Shown here piece by piece: positions 19,182-40,688 of a stretch of 64,000 nt of DNA; position 1 is the stretch's first letter, and each line of letters begins with the position of its first letter. Under the pieces are notes generated by a model, which had not been told where the DNA came from, made no database searches, and was given only the letters and a program-made list of their open reading frames with translations. Both the position numbers and the translations under genes were made by a program. The DNA is from Pseudoglutamicibacter albus (GTDB lineage: Bacteria > Actinomycetota > Actinomycetes > Actinomycetales > Micrococcaceae), in assembly GCF_031458175.1 (NCBI RefSeq), contig NZ_JAVDXX010000001.1, positions 1,550,001 through 1,614,000 on the forward strand, given 5' to 3'.

Positions 19182-20459
19182 ATGAACAAGGGTGTGGTCT
19201 CAATGTCGACACGTATCGAAGTCACCAAACAACTCAAACGGGCCTACAAAACCGCGACGAGGTCCGAGAAGTCTGTGATTCTGGATCAGTTCTGCGCAAC
19301 CACCGGGCTGTCCCGAGTATCAGCCAGACGGTATCTCACCAGCCCACACCTGGGCGTGAAGAATGTGACGAAAGTTGATCGTCGTCGGCATCGCCCGACG
19401 AAGTACTCGGCAGCCTCGAAACGGGTGCTGGTGTGGCTGTGGCGGGTCATGATGTACCCGTGCGGGAAATACATGTGTCAGATGCTCCCCGAATGGATCA
19501 GCCGGCTTGAAGCACATGGCGAACTCAGCCACGGTGAACACGACTACACGCCTGCGGTACGTGCCGAACTGCTTGAGATGTCTGCCGCGACGATCGACCG
19601 ATATTTACGAGAGCACCGGCAGTCACTGGAGTTGAAAGGGATCTCTGCCACCCGTTCTGGCGCGCTGTTACGCACCTCGATCATGATCCGGAAAGCCGGC
19701 GACGAGGCAGAGCATGAGCCCGGCTTTCTGGAGTGTGACACGGTCGCGCACTGCGGCCCCACACTGAAAGGTGAATTCGCCAGAACTTTGACCGCCACTT
19801 GTGTGCAGACGGGATGGACCCACCTGGAAGTGTTACGGAATAACGCACGTGTACACATGCTCGCCGCCCTCACCCGCATGGAAGCTGCGTTACCGTTTGA
19901 TATTGCTGGGCTCGACTGCGATAACGGGTCGGAGTTCATCAACGACCAAGTGATCGAGTGGGCAGGTGACCGGAAGATCTTCTTCACAAGAGCCAGGCCT
20001 TACAAGAAGAATGATCAAGCCCTCGTCGAGTCAAAGAACAACCATATTGTCCGTAAATACGGTTTCTACTACCGTTACGACACCCCAGATGAGCGGGACG
20101 TGCTGACACTGTTATGGCAGGCAGTGATGCTGAAGATGAACTTCTTCACCCCCACCAAGAAACCTGTCGGTTGGAGCGTGGACGGGCAGGGGCGTAGACG
20201 GCGCGTGTATGACGACCCGAAGACCCCGTACCAGCGTCTGCTCGACTCTGGGCTGCTCTCTGTAGCTCAAGAACGAGCGCTGCGGGCGCAGTACGCGAAG
20301 CTCAACCCGGTCGAACTCACGCGTGACATTGTCCGGTATCAGGACATGCTCATCACCAAAGCCAGTTGGAAGACTGAGGTCCTCACAGCTGAGGTCGAAG
20401 ACGCGAAACAGAACCGACGGAAACGACAAACCGGTGGGGTGAAACTCCATACTGCCTAA
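19182..20459 (+). CDS. DDE (rve-type) transposase, IS copy 1
   Basis: This 425-residue protein has an N-terminal region like a helix-turn-helix DNA-binding domain (GLSRVSARRYL, about residues 42-52) and an integrase-type catalytic core. The catalytic triad fits D186 (in LECDTVAH), D247 (in CDNGSEF) and E283 (in ALVESKNNH), giving the D-35-E spacing. No second ORF such as an IstB-like ATPase is present. The start could instead be the ATG at 19203, which has AAGGGTG before it. The protein is identical to that of copy 2 (37678-38955), so one copy arose recently. Confidence 0.9.
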   Translation: MNKGVVSMSTRIEVTKQLKRAYKTATRSEKSVILDQFCATTGLSRVSARRYLTSPHLGVKNVTKVDRRRHRPTKYSAASKRVLVWLWRVMMYPCGKYMCQMLPEWISRLEAHGELSHGEHDYTPAVRAELLEMSAATIDRYLREHRQSLELKGISATRSGALLRTSIMIRKAGDEAEHEPGFLECDTVAHCGPTLKGEFARTLTATCVQTGWTHLEVLRNNARVHMLAALTRMEAALPFDIAGLDCDNGSEFINDQVIEWAGDRKIFFTRARPYKKNDQALVESKNNHIVRKYGFYYRYDTPDERDVLTLLWQAVMLKMNFFTPTKKPVGWSVDGQGRRRRVYDDPKTPYQRLLDSGLLSVAQERALRAQYAKLNPVELTRDIVRYQDMLITKASWKTEVLTAEVEDAKQNRRKRQTGGVKLHTA

Positions 20460-23674: not shown

Positions 23675-25954
23675 TTGATGCACCGTGAGCGATCCACAGT
23701 GCTCCCTCCCCGAACACGAAAGACGATCATAGTGACTTTATCCACACCGCGCCCTCGCCGGGTCCACGCCCGTCGCGCGTCGCGCACTCGATTGCTTGGA
23801 ACTCTTGGCGCATGCGTTGCGACACTGACTCTGGCTATCCCCCCGACGATGGCGCACGCGGCCCCTGTCGCATCGCAGCCTGAAGCATCCGTGCAATCGC
23901 AAAGCGTCATTGTTGCTAAAACCGACAAGCAGTCTCATGAGGATTCGCAAAAGGCTCAGAAGAACCTTGAACGCAAACAGGAGGCGATCGAGAAGCTCAA
24001 CGCCGATGGCTATGACCGCTTCATCGTGACCTACAAGTCCTCGGCTCGTGCCACCAATCAGGCGGCGAAGCGCTCCAAGGCCTGGGAGAAAGCCGGTAAG
24101 TCCTACGGAGTAAATGCCGAGGAAGTGCGCAAGACCGCGACCGGATCACACGTGATCGATCTTGGGGATCAGCGCCTCAAAGGTAAGAAGGCCGATAACT
24201 TCATGGACAAGCTCGCCGCTGACCCTGCAGTTGAATCCGTTGAGCCGGATATCCGGTTGTACCCGGTGAGCCTTGAGCCTCGCGATCAGGACTGGTCCAG
24301 CCTGTGGGGTCTTCACGGCACCTACGGAGTGGATTCGCAGGAAGCGTGGAAGTACACGCAAGGTGAGGGTGCGGTTGTCGCCGTATTGGACTCCGGCATC
24401 ACCCGCCACCCTGACTTGGATGCCAACATTCTGCCGGGCTATGACTTCATCGCCGATCCAGAAACAGCCACCGATGGCGACGGGCGCGATAGCGACCCGA
24501 CCGACAGCGGTGACTGGCAAGTAGCTGGAGAATGCGGCGAGCCCCGCGGACGTGATTCCTCCTGGCACGGAACCCACGTAGCCGGCACCATCGCGGCAGT
24601 TGCAGACTCGAAAGGTGTTGTGGGCGTAGCGCCAAAGTCTAAGGTCGTGCCTGTGCGTGTGCTCGGTAAGTGCGGCGGACGCTTGTCTGACTTCGCTGAC
24701 GCTATCGCCTGGTCAGTCGGAGTAGACGTGCAAGGTGCCCCTAAAAACCAGAACCCAGCTGATGTGATCAATATGTCACTAGGTGGTGGCGGAACCTGCA
24801 TGCCGAGCTACCAGCGTGCCATCGACCTCGCTAACAGCCGCGGAGCCGTGGTTGTTGTGGCTGCGGGTAACGACACCACGAACGCCGCGAACTTCCAGCC
24901 AGCTAACTGCCAAAACGTAGTGACCGTTGGTGCAACCAATAAACAAGGCAAGCCAGCCCACTACTCGAACTTCGGTGACACCCTGGACGTATCTGCACCC
25001 GGCGGTGAAACCCATACTCGCGGTAGCGGAATCCTCTCCACCGTGAACTCCGGCAAGACCCGTCCCGTTGGCCCAAGCTACTCGGAATACCAGGGCACCT
25101 CGATGGCTACCCCGCACGTTGCAGGTGTTGCCGCACTCATGAAGTCCGTGAACCCAGAGATCTCCCCAGCTCGTATCGAGAAGATCCTCAAAGAGACCGT
25201 GAAGGCACCGAATGGCAAGTGCCCGCGTCCGTGCGGCGCAGGGATCGTCGATGCTGGGCGTGCGGTCAAGGCTGCGGCCGGAAACAATGCGCCAGCTCCA
25301 AAGCCAACCCCTAAACCGTCAACGGAGCCAACGTCTCAGCCGAGCCCAGAACCAAGCACGGAACCAAACCCTCAGCCGACCCCTGAGCCAACCACCGAGC
25401 CAACCACCGAGCCAACCACCGAGCCAAGTAGCTCGCCAACCACGGCACCAAGTCCAAAACCAACAACGGAGCAGTCACCTGAGCCTGAGCCTGAGCCTGG
25501 GCGTCAGCTGATCCGTAACGGCGGCTTCGAGGAAGGCCTCGGGCCGTGGTCCAGCAACGCTCGCAACATCCTGGCCCGCAACAGCACTCATGCTCGCTCC
25601 GGTGACCACTCGGCTATGTTCAACGGCAACGGCCGCCCCTCGAGATACACGCTGGAACAGAGCGTGACCGTGCCCGCTAAATCCAATGCGGTTTTGAGCT
25701 ATTGGCTCAAGGTGCGTTCGAACGAACTGATGCCCGCGGTGAGCGACACCCTCACCGTCTCGGTGTGGGACGGCAAACGCTGGACCACCCTGAAAGCTCA
25801 CTCCAATGCCGAGAAGGGTGGAGGCTACCGCCAGCACCACATCGACCTCTCCCGGTTCGCTGGTCAGCAGATCAAGCTACGCTTCATCGGCCGCGAAGGG
25901 CTCTTCTTCGCTACCGCGTTCAACCTTGATGACGTAGAGGTGACCGTCAAATAA
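23675..25954 (+). CDS. Secreted S8 (subtilisin-like) protease
   Basis: This protein of about 759 residues is a subtilase exported by the Sec pathway. A basic N-terminus is followed by a hydrophobic signal segment (about residues 38-60) ending in AHA-AP. An I9-type propeptide/inhibitor-like domain follows (about 108-198, ending DPAVESVEPDIRLYP), then the catalytic domain with D239 (AVLDSGI), H298 (WHGTHVAG) and S476 (GTSMATPHVAG). A proline/threonine/glutamate linker (about 540-605) leads to a C-terminal beta-sandwich, carbohydrate-binding-like domain starting NGGFEEGLGPW. No clear ribosome-binding site marks the start; TTG 23675, ATG 23678 and GTG 23732 are all possible. It faces a lipoprotein with a related domain (26073-26705). 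Confidence 0.93.
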   Translation: MMHRERSTVLPPRTRKTIIVTLSTPRPRRVHARRASRTRLLGTLGACVATLTLAIPPTMAHAAPVASQPEASVQSQSVIVAKTDKQSHEDSQKAQKNLERKQEAIEKLNADGYDRFIVTYKSSARATNQAAKRSKAWEKAGKSYGVNAEEVRKTATGSHVIDLGDQRLKGKKADNFMDKLAADPAVESVEPDIRLYPVSLEPRDQDWSSLWGLHGTYGVDSQEAWKYTQGEGAVVAVLDSGITRHPDLDANILPGYDFIADPETATDGDGRDSDPTDSGDWQVAGECGEPRGRDSSWHGTHVAGTIAAVADSKGVVGVAPKSKVVPVRVLGKCGGRLSDFADAIAWSVGVDVQGAPKNQNPADVINMSLGGGGTCMPSYQRAIDLANSRGAVVVVAAGNDTTNAANFQPANCQNVVTVGATNKQGKPAHYSNFGDTLDVSAPGGETHTRGSGILSTVNSGKTRPVGPSYSEYQGTSMATPHVAGVAALMKSVNPEISPARIEKILKETVKAPNGKCPRPCGAGIVDAGRAVKAAAGNNAPAPKPTPKPSTEPTSQPSPEPSTEPNPQPTPEPTTEPTTEPTTEPSSSPTTAPSPKPTTEQSPEPEPEPGRQLIRNGGFEEGLGPWSSNARNILARNSTHARSGDHSAMFNGNGRPSRYTLEQSVTVPAKSNAVLSYWLKVRSNELMPAVSDTLTVSVWDGKRWTTLKAHSNAEKGGGYRQHHIDLSRFAGQQIKLRFIGREGLFFATAFNLDDVEVTVK
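25385..25426 (+). repeat. 12-bp tandem repeat in the protease linker
   Basis: GAGCCAACCACC is repeated three times and then begins again, encoding E-P-T-T units of the linker. It is in frame, so copy-number changes would only alter linker length. Confidence 0.85.
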
Positions 25955-25960
25955 GAGACC

Positions 25961-26041
25961 CTCTACCGTGCAGGCGGTAGAGCACCATAAAACAAGAGAG
26001 CAAGATGCGGCCGGTCTGGAGCATTCCAGGCCGGCCGCATC
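25961..26041. terminator. Double terminator between protease and lipoprotein
   Basis: Two hairpins lie between the converging genes: CTCTACCG/CGGTAGAG at 25961-25982, and a longer one at 26004-26041 with GATGCGGCCGG pairing with CCGGCCGCATC followed by TTTAT. They should block read-through in both directions. Confidence 0.82.
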
Positions 26042-26072
26042 TTTATCGGTTCGTTCCTCTTACAGGCACCGC

Positions 26073-26705
26073 CTACTGCATGCGTGCTTGCGAATCCGGT
26101 TCAACCGAGGTGACCTCCGGCAGCTTTTCCAAAGCCTCGCTCACCTCATCCAACCGGGTCTCTTTGAAACCAGGCTCCAAGCTGTAGACGAACGAGCCAT
26201 CGAACATCGTGAGCCCCGGCTTAGCCGCAACATCGAACTTCTCAAGGGCCCGAGCCACCTTCTTATCCACCTCGTCGCGGTCAGAACCCTTCTTAACTTG
26301 CAGGATCAACCCGTCAATAGTCCCCCGACCAACCGCTGGCGGACCAGGATGCCGCAGCGAAGGATCGTTCTTTGGGCCGCGCATCGAAGGAAGCCTGCTC
26401 GAAGACGGGCCGTCCTGAGGACCACCCGAAGTAGAAGATGAAGGGGGCATGGTCGTAGACTCCTCTGACTCGCTGGCTGAAGGCTGCGTTGACTCATTGG
26501 CTGAAGGCTCCGCCGAACCTGTTTCCGCGGGCGATGCCGACTCGGTAACCGACTGCTCAGCCTCATTCTGGGAAGGGCCGCTAGAGCATGCCGCTACGAC
26601 TGATAAGGACAACGCGAGCACACACGCGGGAATAAGCCGCCGCGCCGCGCCCGGCGTTCTAGGATTCTCGCGGCTGTAAAACTGAGGCGTCATTTCTGAA
26701 TGCAT
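26073..26705 (-). CDS. Lipoprotein with an I9/propeptide-like domain
   Basis: This 210-residue protein has a signal peptide (hydrophobic CVLALSLSVVAAC) with a lipobox, so C40 is the likely lipidated residue. A Ser/Glu/Pro-rich linker (about 41-110) leads to a C-terminal domain (about 125-210). That domain resembles the propeptide of the adjacent subtilase: GSFVYSLEP matches GSHVIDLGD, and LEKLPEVTSVEPD matches LAADPAVESVEPD. In the family such I9 domains inhibit subtilases and help them fold. I infer a cell-bound inhibitor or immunity-like partner of the protease; no named family was recognised. The start could also be the ATG at 26693. Confidence 0.72.
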   Translation of the reverse strand: MHSEMTPQFYSRENPRTPGAARRLIPACVLALSLSVVAACSSGPSQNEAEQSVTESASPAETGSAEPSANESTQPSASESEESTTMPPSSSTSGGPQDGPSSSRLPSMRGPKNDPSLRHPGPPAVGRGTIDGLILQVKKGSDRDEVDKKVARALEKFDVAAKPGLTMFDGSFVYSLEPGFKETRLDEVSEALEKLPEVTSVEPDSQARMQ

Positions 26706-28594: not shown

Positions 28595-29213
28595 CTAGAT
28601 GGCGGCCTCAACCGCTGTGCGGGCCGCCACGAATGCGTCCACGCACGCCTCGATGTCCTCGGGCGAGTGCGCCGCTGAAAGCTGAACGCGAATGCGGGCC
28701 TCACCGCGCGGAACCACCGGGAAACTGAACGCCGTGACATACACGCCGTGGTTGAGCATCTCGTCGGCGATCTTGGACGCGAGCGCGGCATCGTGGAACA
28801 TGACTGCGATGATCGCATGCTCGCCCTCAAGCAGCTCGAAGCCCTCCTCGTCCATGCGGCGGCGGAAGTGCGCGGCATTCTCGAAGAGTTTCTCACGCAA
28901 GTCAGCTGCCCCCGAAACCAAGTCCAGGGCAGTGATCGTTGCGGCAACGATCGCTAGGGCCAGCGAGTTGGAGAACAAATACGGGCGGCCTTGCTGACGC
29001 AAAATATCGACAATCTGCTGACGAGCCGCAACATAACCGCCCGATGCGCCACCCAGGGCCTTGCCGAACGTTCCGGTGTAGATGTCAACGCGGTCAGAAA
29101 CCCCCGCATGTTCAGGAGTTCCTGCGCCGGTCTCCCCCATGAAACCGACCGCATGCGAATCATCGACCATGACCAAAGCGCCGTACTCGTCGGCCAGGTC
29201 GCACAAGTGGTCA
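28595..29213 (-). pseudogene. kbl: kbl, 3' half (2-amino-3-ketobutyrate CoA ligase)
   Basis: This is the C-terminal half of glycine C-acetyltransferase, a PLP enzyme that converts 2-amino-3-ketobutyrate and CoA to glycine and acetyl-CoA. The fragment starts near [21 protein letters not shown] and contains the PLP lysine motif [14 protein letters not shown]. The N-terminal half is at 40091-40688. Joining the two leaves roughly four codons missing (the usual I-A-P-L after SMDGY), so the gap is not a clean insertion. No proper start exists for this half, and the enzyme cannot be made. Confidence 0.9.
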
Positions 29214-37677: not shown

Positions 37678-38955
37678 ATGAACAAGGGTGTGGTCTCAAT
37701 GTCGACACGTATCGAAGTCACCAAACAACTCAAACGGGCCTACAAAACCGCGACGAGGTCCGAGAAGTCTGTGATTCTGGATCAGTTCTGCGCAACCACC
37801 GGGCTGTCCCGAGTATCAGCCAGACGGTATCTCACCAGCCCACACCTGGGCGTGAAGAATGTGACGAAAGTTGATCGTCGTCGGCATCGCCCGACGAAGT
37901 ACTCGGCAGCCTCGAAACGGGTGCTGGTGTGGCTGTGGCGGGTCATGATGTACCCGTGCGGGAAATACATGTGTCAGATGCTCCCCGAATGGATCAGCCG
38001 GCTTGAAGCACATGGCGAACTCAGCCACGGTGAACACGACTACACGCCTGCGGTACGTGCCGAACTGCTTGAGATGTCTGCCGCGACGATCGACCGATAT
38101 TTACGAGAGCACCGGCAGTCACTGGAGTTGAAAGGGATCTCTGCCACCCGTTCTGGCGCGCTGTTACGCACCTCGATCATGATCCGGAAAGCCGGCGACG
38201 AGGCAGAGCATGAGCCCGGCTTTCTGGAGTGTGACACGGTCGCGCACTGCGGCCCCACACTGAAAGGTGAATTCGCCAGAACTTTGACCGCCACTTGTGT
38301 GCAGACGGGATGGACCCACCTGGAAGTGTTACGGAATAACGCACGTGTACACATGCTCGCCGCCCTCACCCGCATGGAAGCTGCGTTACCGTTTGATATT
38401 GCTGGGCTCGACTGCGATAACGGGTCGGAGTTCATCAACGACCAAGTGATCGAGTGGGCAGGTGACCGGAAGATCTTCTTCACAAGAGCCAGGCCTTACA
38501 AGAAGAATGATCAAGCCCTCGTCGAGTCAAAGAACAACCATATTGTCCGTAAATACGGTTTCTACTACCGTTACGACACCCCAGATGAGCGGGACGTGCT
38601 GACACTGTTATGGCAGGCAGTGATGCTGAAGATGAACTTCTTCACCCCCACCAAGAAACCTGTCGGTTGGAGCGTGGACGGGCAGGGGCGTAGACGGCGC
38701 GTGTATGACGACCCGAAGACCCCGTACCAGCGTCTGCTCGACTCTGGGCTGCTCTCTGTAGCTCAAGAACGAGCGCTGCGGGCGCAGTACGCGAAGCTCA
38801 ACCCGGTCGAACTCACGCGTGACATTGTCCGGTATCAGGACATGCTCATCACCAAAGCCAGTTGGAAGACTGAGGTCCTCACAGCTGAGGTCGAAGACGC
38901 GAAACAGAACCGACGGAAACGACAAACCGGTGGGGTGAAACTCCATACTGCCTAA
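37678..38955 (+). CDS. DDE transposase, IS copy 2
   Basis: This 425-residue protein is identical in sequence to the transposase of copy 1, with the same D186, D247, E283 triad. The gene is intact, but the element's right end is separated by the IS481 insertion, so it may still act on copy 1 while being immobile itself. Confidence 0.9.
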   Translation: MNKGVVSMSTRIEVTKQLKRAYKTATRSEKSVILDQFCATTGLSRVSARRYLTSPHLGVKNVTKVDRRRHRPTKYSAASKRVLVWLWRVMMYPCGKYMCQMLPEWISRLEAHGELSHGEHDYTPAVRAELLEMSAATIDRYLREHRQSLELKGISATRSGALLRTSIMIRKAGDEAEHEPGFLECDTVAHCGPTLKGEFARTLTATCVQTGWTHLEVLRNNARVHMLAALTRMEAALPFDIAGLDCDNGSEFINDQVIEWAGDRKIFFTRARPYKKNDQALVESKNNHIVRKYGFYYRYDTPDERDVLTLLWQAVMLKMNFFTPTKKPVGWSVDGQGRRRRVYDDPKTPYQRLLDSGLLSVAQERALRAQYAKLNPVELTRDIVRYQDMLITKASWKTEVLTAEVEDAKQNRRKRQTGGVKLHTA

Positions 38956-40057: not shown

Positions 40058-40090
40058 GGCTACGCGATCAACTTGACATGAGGCACTACG

Positions 40091-40688
40091 GATAGCCGTC
40101 CATCGAGAACACACCATCGGTCACGATCACGGTGCGGCGAGCGCCCGCGCCATCGTTGAGGGCCTTGGCCGCTTCGAGTTGGGCTCTAAGGTCTTCCATA
40201 TCGCGGTTGGCGTAGCGGAAGCGGGCTGCTTTAGAGAGCCTGATCCCGTCGATGAGCGAGGCGTGGTTCAGGGCGTCCGAGATGATCGCGTCCTGTTCGC
40301 CGAACAGCGGCGCGAACACGGCACCGTTGGCGTCAAAGCAGGAAGAGAACAGGATCGCGTCATCGGTTCCCAACCAGTCAGCGAGCTTGCCCTCGAGCTC
40401 AAGGTGTTGGTCCTGGGTTCCGCAGATGAACCGCACCGATGCCATACCGAAACCGCGTTCGGTCAAGGCTTCACGTGCGGAGTCGATGATCCGCGGATCA
40501 TCGGCCAGGCCAAGGTAGTTGTTGGCGCAAAAGTTCAGCACCTCACGGGCTTGGCCGTTCGCGCTAGCGGTGATGTGGGCTGACTGCGGGGTCGTGATGG
40601 TCCGCTCCCGTTTGGTCAGGCCCGAGGCCTCGATCTCATCCAGTTCAGCCTGCAGATCAGCAAGCATCGCCTCACGTGCATTCGTCAT
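40091..40688 (-). pseudogene. kbl: kbl, 5' half (2-amino-3-ketobutyrate CoA ligase)
   Basis: This is the N-terminal 199 residues or so of glycine C-acetyltransferase, from [19 protein letters not shown] through [14 protein letters not shown], the [16 protein letters not shown] block and [10 protein letters not shown]. It is then cut by the right end of IS copy 2, whose sequence adds P and a stop. The rest of the gene is at 28595-29213. It lies 61 bases after tdh in the threonine-degradation operon. Confidence 0.92.

Follow-up and report, generated by a model that had tools for sequence, protein, structure and literature searches.

Why does Pseudoglutamicibacter albus encode, directly beside a secreted subtilase, a lipoprotein that ends in a domain resembling the propeptide of a subtilase? 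Such propeptides are usually one-gene, one-use inhibitors. Here, in the window (the whole 64,000-nucleotide stretch that was analysed, G000:C1:1550001-1614000, within a 2.22-Mb chromosome), a propeptide-like domain appears to come from a gene of its own. We consider it probable that the lipoprotein is a surface-tethered trans-inhibitor that holds the neighbouring subtilase inactive. The computed support consists of a relation to propeptides, a predicted fold, the length of the C-terminal tail, a lipobox, conservation of the gene pair, purifying selection and recurrence in another family; from these we infer surface exposure, binding, inhibition and self-protection.

The two open reading frames, of 210 and 759 aa, lie where the preliminary description had placed them (Table 1). 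They are convergent, with 118 bp between their stop codons, and a hairpin fills much of this gap (fold of 25950-26072: -59.6 kcal/mol, z -7.5), so that the two genes are probably separate transcription units. The hairpin is absent from the output of a simple consensus terminator scan; it is probably the terminator for both genes. The subtilase comprises a signal region, propeptide, S8 domain, Pro/Thr-rich linker and C-terminal domain, and by inspection its catalytic Asp, His and Ser motifs are intact. Inspection likewise finds in the lipoprotein the signal peptide with lipobox and cysteine that mark a bacterial lipoprotein, with a hydrophobic stretch and the sequence VVAAC at residues 36-40 (AVAAC in both sister species). 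The C-terminal domain is compact, at 85 residues. The sister-species proteins follow the same plan and, at 190 aa, are 20 residues shorter through gaps in the linker.

Table 1. Features of the lipoprotein-subtilase locus (positions in the window) and of comparable loci elsewhere (locus handle, then positions)
Feature	Position	Strand	Basis or remark
Lipoprotein gene	26073..26705	-	210-aa ORF, ATG start; orthologues in G001, G002, G064
Signal peptide and lipobox (...VVAAC, Cys40)	26586..26705	-	by inspection of sequence
Ser/Pro/Glu/Thr-rich linker, residues 41-125 (85 residues)	26331..26585	-	alignment
Propeptide-like (I9-like) domain, residues 126-210	26076..26330	-	A2 profile match, hhalign, AlphaFold2
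E-P-D motif, residues 202-204	26094..26102	-	aligned with the sequences of 1spb and 1itp
Free six-residue C-terminal tail SQARMQ	26076..26093	-	predicted product-like tail for active-site cleft
Secreted subtilase precursor, 759 aa	23675..25954	+	ORF and Pfam S8
Subtilase's own propeptide, through six residues past EPD	24011..24268	+	A2 profile E=2.9e-27; cleavage point inferred
Peptidase S8 catalytic domain, residues 230-523	24362..25243	+	PF00082 E=2e-63
Long near-perfect hairpin flanked by AAGA/TCTT, between the two stops	26002..26043		fold
Lipoproteins of family f3	L179 1498-2022; L180 1312-1848; L181 1276-1818; L182 1492-2148; L185 969-1436		
Stand-alone I9 loci beside subtilases, genus g73	L152 2366-3944; L167-L171; L174		

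The domain is identical in P. albus strain ACRRA and retains 69% identity in P. cumminsii IME1328. Two stretches of 8.6 and 1.4 kb that surround the genes match the ACRRA contig at 97.4 and 97.7% identity. It is more constrained than the linker, and under purifying selection. By the Nei-Gojobori method, dN/dS for P. albus against the two sisters is 0.16 and 0.15 in the domain versus 0.32 and 0.32 in the linker, ratios that are rough since dS exceeds 1.2 for both parts; between the two sister species the values are 0.05 and 0.18.

Is this domain related to subtilase propeptides? The relation was originally suggested by two short matches, GSFVYSLEP with GSHVIDLGD and VTSVEPD with VESVEPD; both are present, and the segments that they bound measure 35 residues in the lipoprotein and 36 in the propeptide. 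Profile, shuffle and hhalign tests place the likeness above chance. The profile A2 combines the propeptides of nine subtilases from other genera, with the genus's own subtilases and lipoproteins left out; it matches 147 of 245 family genomes at E ≤ 0.5. At that threshold it has just two matches in the genome of the window (G000), namely the neighbouring propeptide (2.9e-27) and the lipoprotein domain (0.0068). Whole-genome searches gave 1.4e-5 and 1.2e-4 for the lipoproteins of the sister species (G001 and G002) and 0.0068 for that of G064; apart from the G001 and G002 lipoproteins, all the matches listed at E < 1e-3 lie in frames of at least 430 aa. The bit scores of the window, G001 and G002 domains (19.0, 27.7 and 24.8) were equalled by none of 19,581, 19,549 and 19,526 reported shuffles, respectively, from 20,000 made for each. 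When the last 20 residues are removed, 892 of 19,299 shuffles score as well as the window domain, which is then no longer special; for the sister species the signal is reduced, with 11 of 19,340 and 30 of 19,315 shuffles as good. Taken by itself, the sequence evidence therefore comes mainly from the beta4-EPD block.

A profile of the three lipoproteins (A1), searched against 197 family genomes, returned four orthologues at E ≤ 1e-50. The next best matches are subtilase propeptides, in G002 (0.0018), G001 (0.0048) and G007 (0.0052), followed for the most part by short matches at other places; even at E ≤ 10 the list does not include the neighbouring propeptide of G000. Aligned by hhalign, A1 and A2 match over 77 columns with a probability of 94.5 and a pairwise E of 7.6e-8, rising to 96.3 and 1.8e-9 when the genus's own propeptides are added. 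The A2 propeptides are themselves weakly like solved ones: seven of their nine PDB matches (E ≤ 10) are subtilase proregions or proenzymes, the best at E 0.084. The Pfam family PF05922 (Inhibitor_I9) matches neither the lipoprotein nor the neighbouring subtilase, propeptide included, at E ≤ 10, and nothing at E ≤ 0.01 in the four genomes of the genus. Because its curated cut-off is not reached, we describe the lipoprotein only as I9-like and not as a PF05922 member. Profile comparison does show a sequence relation to subtilase propeptides of the MEROPS I9 type, its signal mostly in the last 20 residues.

Other matches were set aside. Among the 26 non-orthologous A1 loci (L057-L082, L076 unread), L057 and L070 are subtilase propeptides; many of the remainder reflect a short stretch of similarity, at positions about 35-61, to an unrelated protein, which we take to be an aldo/keto reductase. 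The full-length lipoprotein has matches in 50 of 59 genomes at E ≤ 1, three of which were counted real (E ≤ 1e-50); most of the others cover signal or linker residues and a few the domain. Against Pfam, NCBIfam and PDB sequences it gives only weak matches, mostly in the low-complexity or signal part, and a MORF-domain match to residues 178-208 (E=0.013) is below that family's cut-off.

Might the resemblance be accidental, an unrelated ferredoxin-like lipoprotein domain happening to end in a VEPD-like block? An E of only 0.007 in the window, the loss of significance without the last 20 residues and the silence of PF05922 would all fit such a coincidence. We nevertheless think it highly improbable, given the far lower E values in G001 and G002, the failure of any shuffle to equal a real score, the agreement in fold order, tail length and gene adjacency, and the presence of the same plan in family f3, all described in what follows or above.

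The predicted structure is consistent with a relation to propeptides. AlphaFold2, supplied with the three lipoprotein rows only, gives an E-H-E-E-H-E (bab-bab) domain with pLDDT 78.8 and pTM 0.64, its elements being E4-12, H18-30, E36-43, E46-56, H57-68 and E73-79. The neighbouring propeptide, modelled with the catalytic domain from eight subtilase rows at moderate confidence (overall pLDDT 62), has its elements in the same order (E7-12, H19-34, E41-45, E51-54, H62-73, E78-83). This is the strand-helix order of subtilase propeptides (PMC6993865), and the expectation that structure prediction would yield an I9-like arrangement is thus borne out. It is also the order of the common ferredoxin-like fold. 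Ribosomal protein S6 and ACT domains head the PDB fold matches. The best 50 matches by Foldseek include a single propeptide-bearing protein, PCSK9 (rank 28), and VIA-align 2 places none among its best 50. The modelled fold agrees with the propeptide reading without proving it, being necessary and not sufficient. The many roles of ferredoxin-like folds, together with the low identity of the domain to propeptides, would also suit a propeptide-derived domain that now serves adhesion, ligand binding or surface sensing. Such a new use leaves the kept tail length and the gene pairing unexplained, and we judge it distinctly improbable.

Of all the features, the C-terminal tail hints most strongly that the domain is an inhibitor and not a relic. 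The lipoproteins end EPD-SQARMQ in P. albus and EPD-SQVRLQ in both sister species, immediately before the stop codon. Exactly six residues follow E-x-D in the lipoproteins of all three species, in the BPN' propeptide (HVAHAY) and in POIA1 (GIVTTQ), so that the I9-type combination of E-x-D and a free, product-like six-residue tail seen in 1spb and 1itp is found here too. In the alignment E-P-D occupies the place of Glu69-x-Asp71 of the BPN' propeptide, whose glutamate and aspartate are helix caps (PMC6993865). The tail of a propeptide binds in the active-site cleft much as a product does, and the potency of YIB2 and POIA1 changed when their last six residues were replaced (PMC10580911). In the lipoprotein, an N-terminal lipid and a long linker would leave the C-terminus free.

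We propose that the lipoprotein mimics, as a separate protein, the propeptide of the neighbouring subtilase. The N-terminal lipid and flexible 85-residue linker would hold the domain on the outer face of the membrane. There it would dock on the mature protease at its two surface helices, which E202 and D204 would cap, and the free tail would lie in the active-site cleft like a product. Mature or prematurely active subtilase lingering at the surface would be kept inactive, while protease that diffuses away would stay fully active. A separate gene would allow the levels of inhibitor and protease to be set independently.

The distribution of the two genes favours a functional pair. It had been argued that relatives carrying the lipoprotein without the protease would speak against such a link; no genome of the genus that was searched does so, and both genes are found in four of four within the family sample of 197. 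In a 297-genome sample of the order, the domain was found in none of the other 296 genomes (E ≤ 0.01). The gene order is convergent in the window, in P. cumminsii and in G002; in G064 the matches to the domain and to S8 are on opposite strands, with 0.8 kb between them. In G002 (L156 1515-6132) two intact tandem subtilases stand beside the lipoprotein, and in P. cumminsii (probably G001; L022 6371-10941) there is a tandem pair, the second copy split into two frames.

Other genera of the family have related subtilases and, by A1 or A2, no such lipoprotein, implying that the subtilase does not generally need one. This bears on the possibility that the domain is a trans-acting chaperone, folding the newly exported subtilase at the membrane, with inhibition secondary. 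In mesophilic subtilases the propeptide is both an obligatory chaperone and an inhibitor (PMC10580911), and both the membrane, where export ends, and the operon-like gene order in f3 (below) would suit a foldase. The subtilase copies that were read nevertheless retain propeptides of their own, and with the related subtilases that lack a lipoprotein partner this makes a chaperone unlikely as the main role.

The case for an inhibitor is strengthened by recurrence of the plan in a second family, f3. When A2 was used to scan 42 subtilase loci from other genera, with partial flanks, six frames shorter than 300 aa had any score (E ≤ 10). One was strong, at 28.8 bits (16.7 bits when the propeptide row of the adjoining subtilase is left out of A2). 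This is a 174-aa lipoprotein of G038, with the lipobox LGGC by inspection, which starts 12 bp past the stop codon of the subtilase on the same strand. Its domain, searched against 151 f3 genomes, matched 11 of them at E ≤ 0.01, and the seven loci that were read (L179-L183, L185, L186) contain five lipoproteins, in G038, G820, G807, G819 and G777 (Table 1). In the first four of these the lipoprotein gene is immediately preceded, on the same strand, by that of a subtilase; for G777 no S8 was seen within the 2.9 kb examined. The G038 lipoprotein, as query, matches the propeptides of the four neighbouring subtilases at 2.3e-11 to 1.3e-7. Like the P. albus protein, the f3 proteins have a lipobox (by inspection), a linker, a C-terminal propeptide-like domain and a short free tail. 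They end EPI-VTAVTQ, EPI-VTATAQ, EPV-LTATK, EPI-LVATIK and EVE-GKAQIN, with tails of 6, 6, 5, 6 and 6 residues. They differ in lying on the same strand as the subtilase and not convergent with it, in having EPI, EPV or EVE for E-x-D, and in not being close in sequence.

A profile of the five f3 lipoproteins (A4) matches A2 with a probability of 98.0 and a pairwise E of 2.3e-13, a figure that carries a small circularity through the G038 row, whereas A4 against A1 gives a probability of 10 and a pairwise E of 0.003. By these profile scores each lipoprotein set is more like subtilase propeptides than like the other set, which would fit separate origins or fast divergence. Among the 297 genomes of the order, A4 matched seven at E ≤ 0.001, and the frames under 300 aa were the G038 lipoprotein and a 217-aa piece in G510; the latter reads like the front of a subtilase, has no lipobox and was rejected.

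Which protease would such an inhibitor restrain? A second S8 gene in G000 (1110 aa), at G000:C1:213595-215046, means that the partner is not forced by elimination, and the domain might be aimed at this protease or at the subtilases of competitors or of a host; some Bacillus propeptides do inhibit heterologous subtilisins (PMC10580911). The second S8 gene is far off, however, whereas the conserved neighbour is a subtilase with a similar type of propeptide, and in f3, too, the lipoprotein is paired with the subtilase next to it. We therefore find another target improbable and retain the neighbouring subtilase as the partner.

How far is this arrangement new? The interpretation first offered, of a stand-alone propeptide copy acting as a control device, is partly supported, by the predicted I9-order fold, the pairing throughout the genus sample and the free six-residue tail, and gains from the independent-looking f3 lipoproteins that lie directly behind subtilases. 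An inhibitor made from its own gene is not novel in kind. Stand-alone propeptide-like inhibitors are known in POIA1, in yeast and Arabidopsis inhibitors, in TgMIC5 and in Plasmodium SUB1-ProM (PMC6993865). POIA1 (PDB 1itp, 1v5i) and yeast YIB2 are, like the lipoprotein, stand-alone propeptide-like gene products; the POIA1 chain also ends six residues past E-x-D, and the C-terminal residues of each protein influence its inhibition (PMC10580911). They differ in being eukaryotic, in having neither lipid anchor nor linker, and in that their inhibition has been measured, where that of the lipoprotein is predicted. SUB1-ProM and TgMIC5 act on the organism's own subtilase, and the SUB1-ProM gene adjoins that of SUB1 as the lipoprotein gene adjoins its subtilase (PMC6993865). 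Both are eukaryotic secretory proteins, however, and SUB1-ProM is found in the parasitophorous vacuole, with a possibly non-canonical use of its tail (PMC6993865). The BPN' propeptide (1spb) shares E-x-D and the six-residue tail but is part of the protease precursor, removed in maturation, and not a separate surface protein. Among bacteria, the subtilisin-like protease PopC of Myxococcus is restrained by a separate partner, PopD, and offers an analogy to our pair that implies no relation of PopD to I9; PopD differs in forming its complex with PopC before secretion (PMC6434023).

The stand-alone copies named in PMC6993865 are eukaryotic, and our literature search, conducted mostly outside subscription papers, found no bacterial or lipid-anchored stand-alone I9 inhibitor. 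The kind is already known, and it is the lipid tether and the bacterial setting that look new. If the proposed role is correct, a membrane-tethered copy would be a spatial switch, with the protease off at its producer and on elsewhere. It would offer a simple account of how a protease-secreting bacterium that lacks an outer membrane leaves the proteins on its own surface intact. That the plan recurs in a second family suggests a class that has been overlooked, for which a free C-terminus five or six residues past an EP block could serve as a search rule to recover members that Pfam I9 misses.

Secreted stand-alone relatives occur in another genus, g73 (probably Streptomyces). In 148 genomes of the class, PF05922 gave 136 rows at E ≤ 1e-4, two of them in frames under 250 aa. 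The frame in G306 belongs to a subtilase truncated where the contig ends. The frame in G405 encodes an I9 protein of 130 aa that looks secreted, and it is convergent with a subtilase gene. Searched against 81 g73 genomes, the G405 protein matched 32 at E ≤ 0.001, most rows looking, by frame length, like subtilase precursors. Examination of the frames up to 250 aa and of the G454 row yielded a stand-alone I9 protein in eight genomes (G405, G421, G447, G450, G454, G462, G480, G484). A subtilase adjoins it in six of the eight, five times divergently and once convergently; in G454 and G421 no S8 motif was found within the 12 and 17 kb covered. In the paired proteins the tail has 6 to 16 residues; that of G421 has 10 and that of G454 has 36. 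These proteins share with the P. albus lipoprotein an I9-like domain, a gene of its own and, in the six pairs, a position beside a subtilase, but they have a signal peptide without a lipobox (by inspection) and the pairs are mostly divergent. Further candidates were rejected: a 182-aa frame in G076 is the leading part of a subtilase that runs on in the adjoining sequence, that in G181 sits in a broken subtilase, and that in G068 is a chance frame.

We lean, by a narrow margin of belief, towards a wider view in which Actinobacteria have two-gene subtilase systems, with a stand-alone relative of the propeptide as immunity protein. This protein would be lipid-anchored in at least two families, silencing the protease only at the surface of the producer, and secreted in another genus.

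Finally, two further observations concern other parts of the window. Positions 28595-29206 and 40086-40688 hold the two ends of one gene, presumably the glycine C-acetyltransferase gene kbl, on the same strand and about 10.9 kb apart, with transposase-like and ABC-transporter-like genes between them. P. albus ACRRA (L021), P. cumminsii (L022) and G002 (L156) each have this gene as one open frame, 410-423 codons long, and because it is unbroken there we regard the intervening DNA as an insertion in the window strain that is absent from those three. Two 425-aa transposase-like ORFs, at 19182-20459 and 37678-38955, have translations that look identical; one of them sits inside a run of ribosomal-protein genes, on the opposite strand, between genes that we take to be rplA and rplJ.
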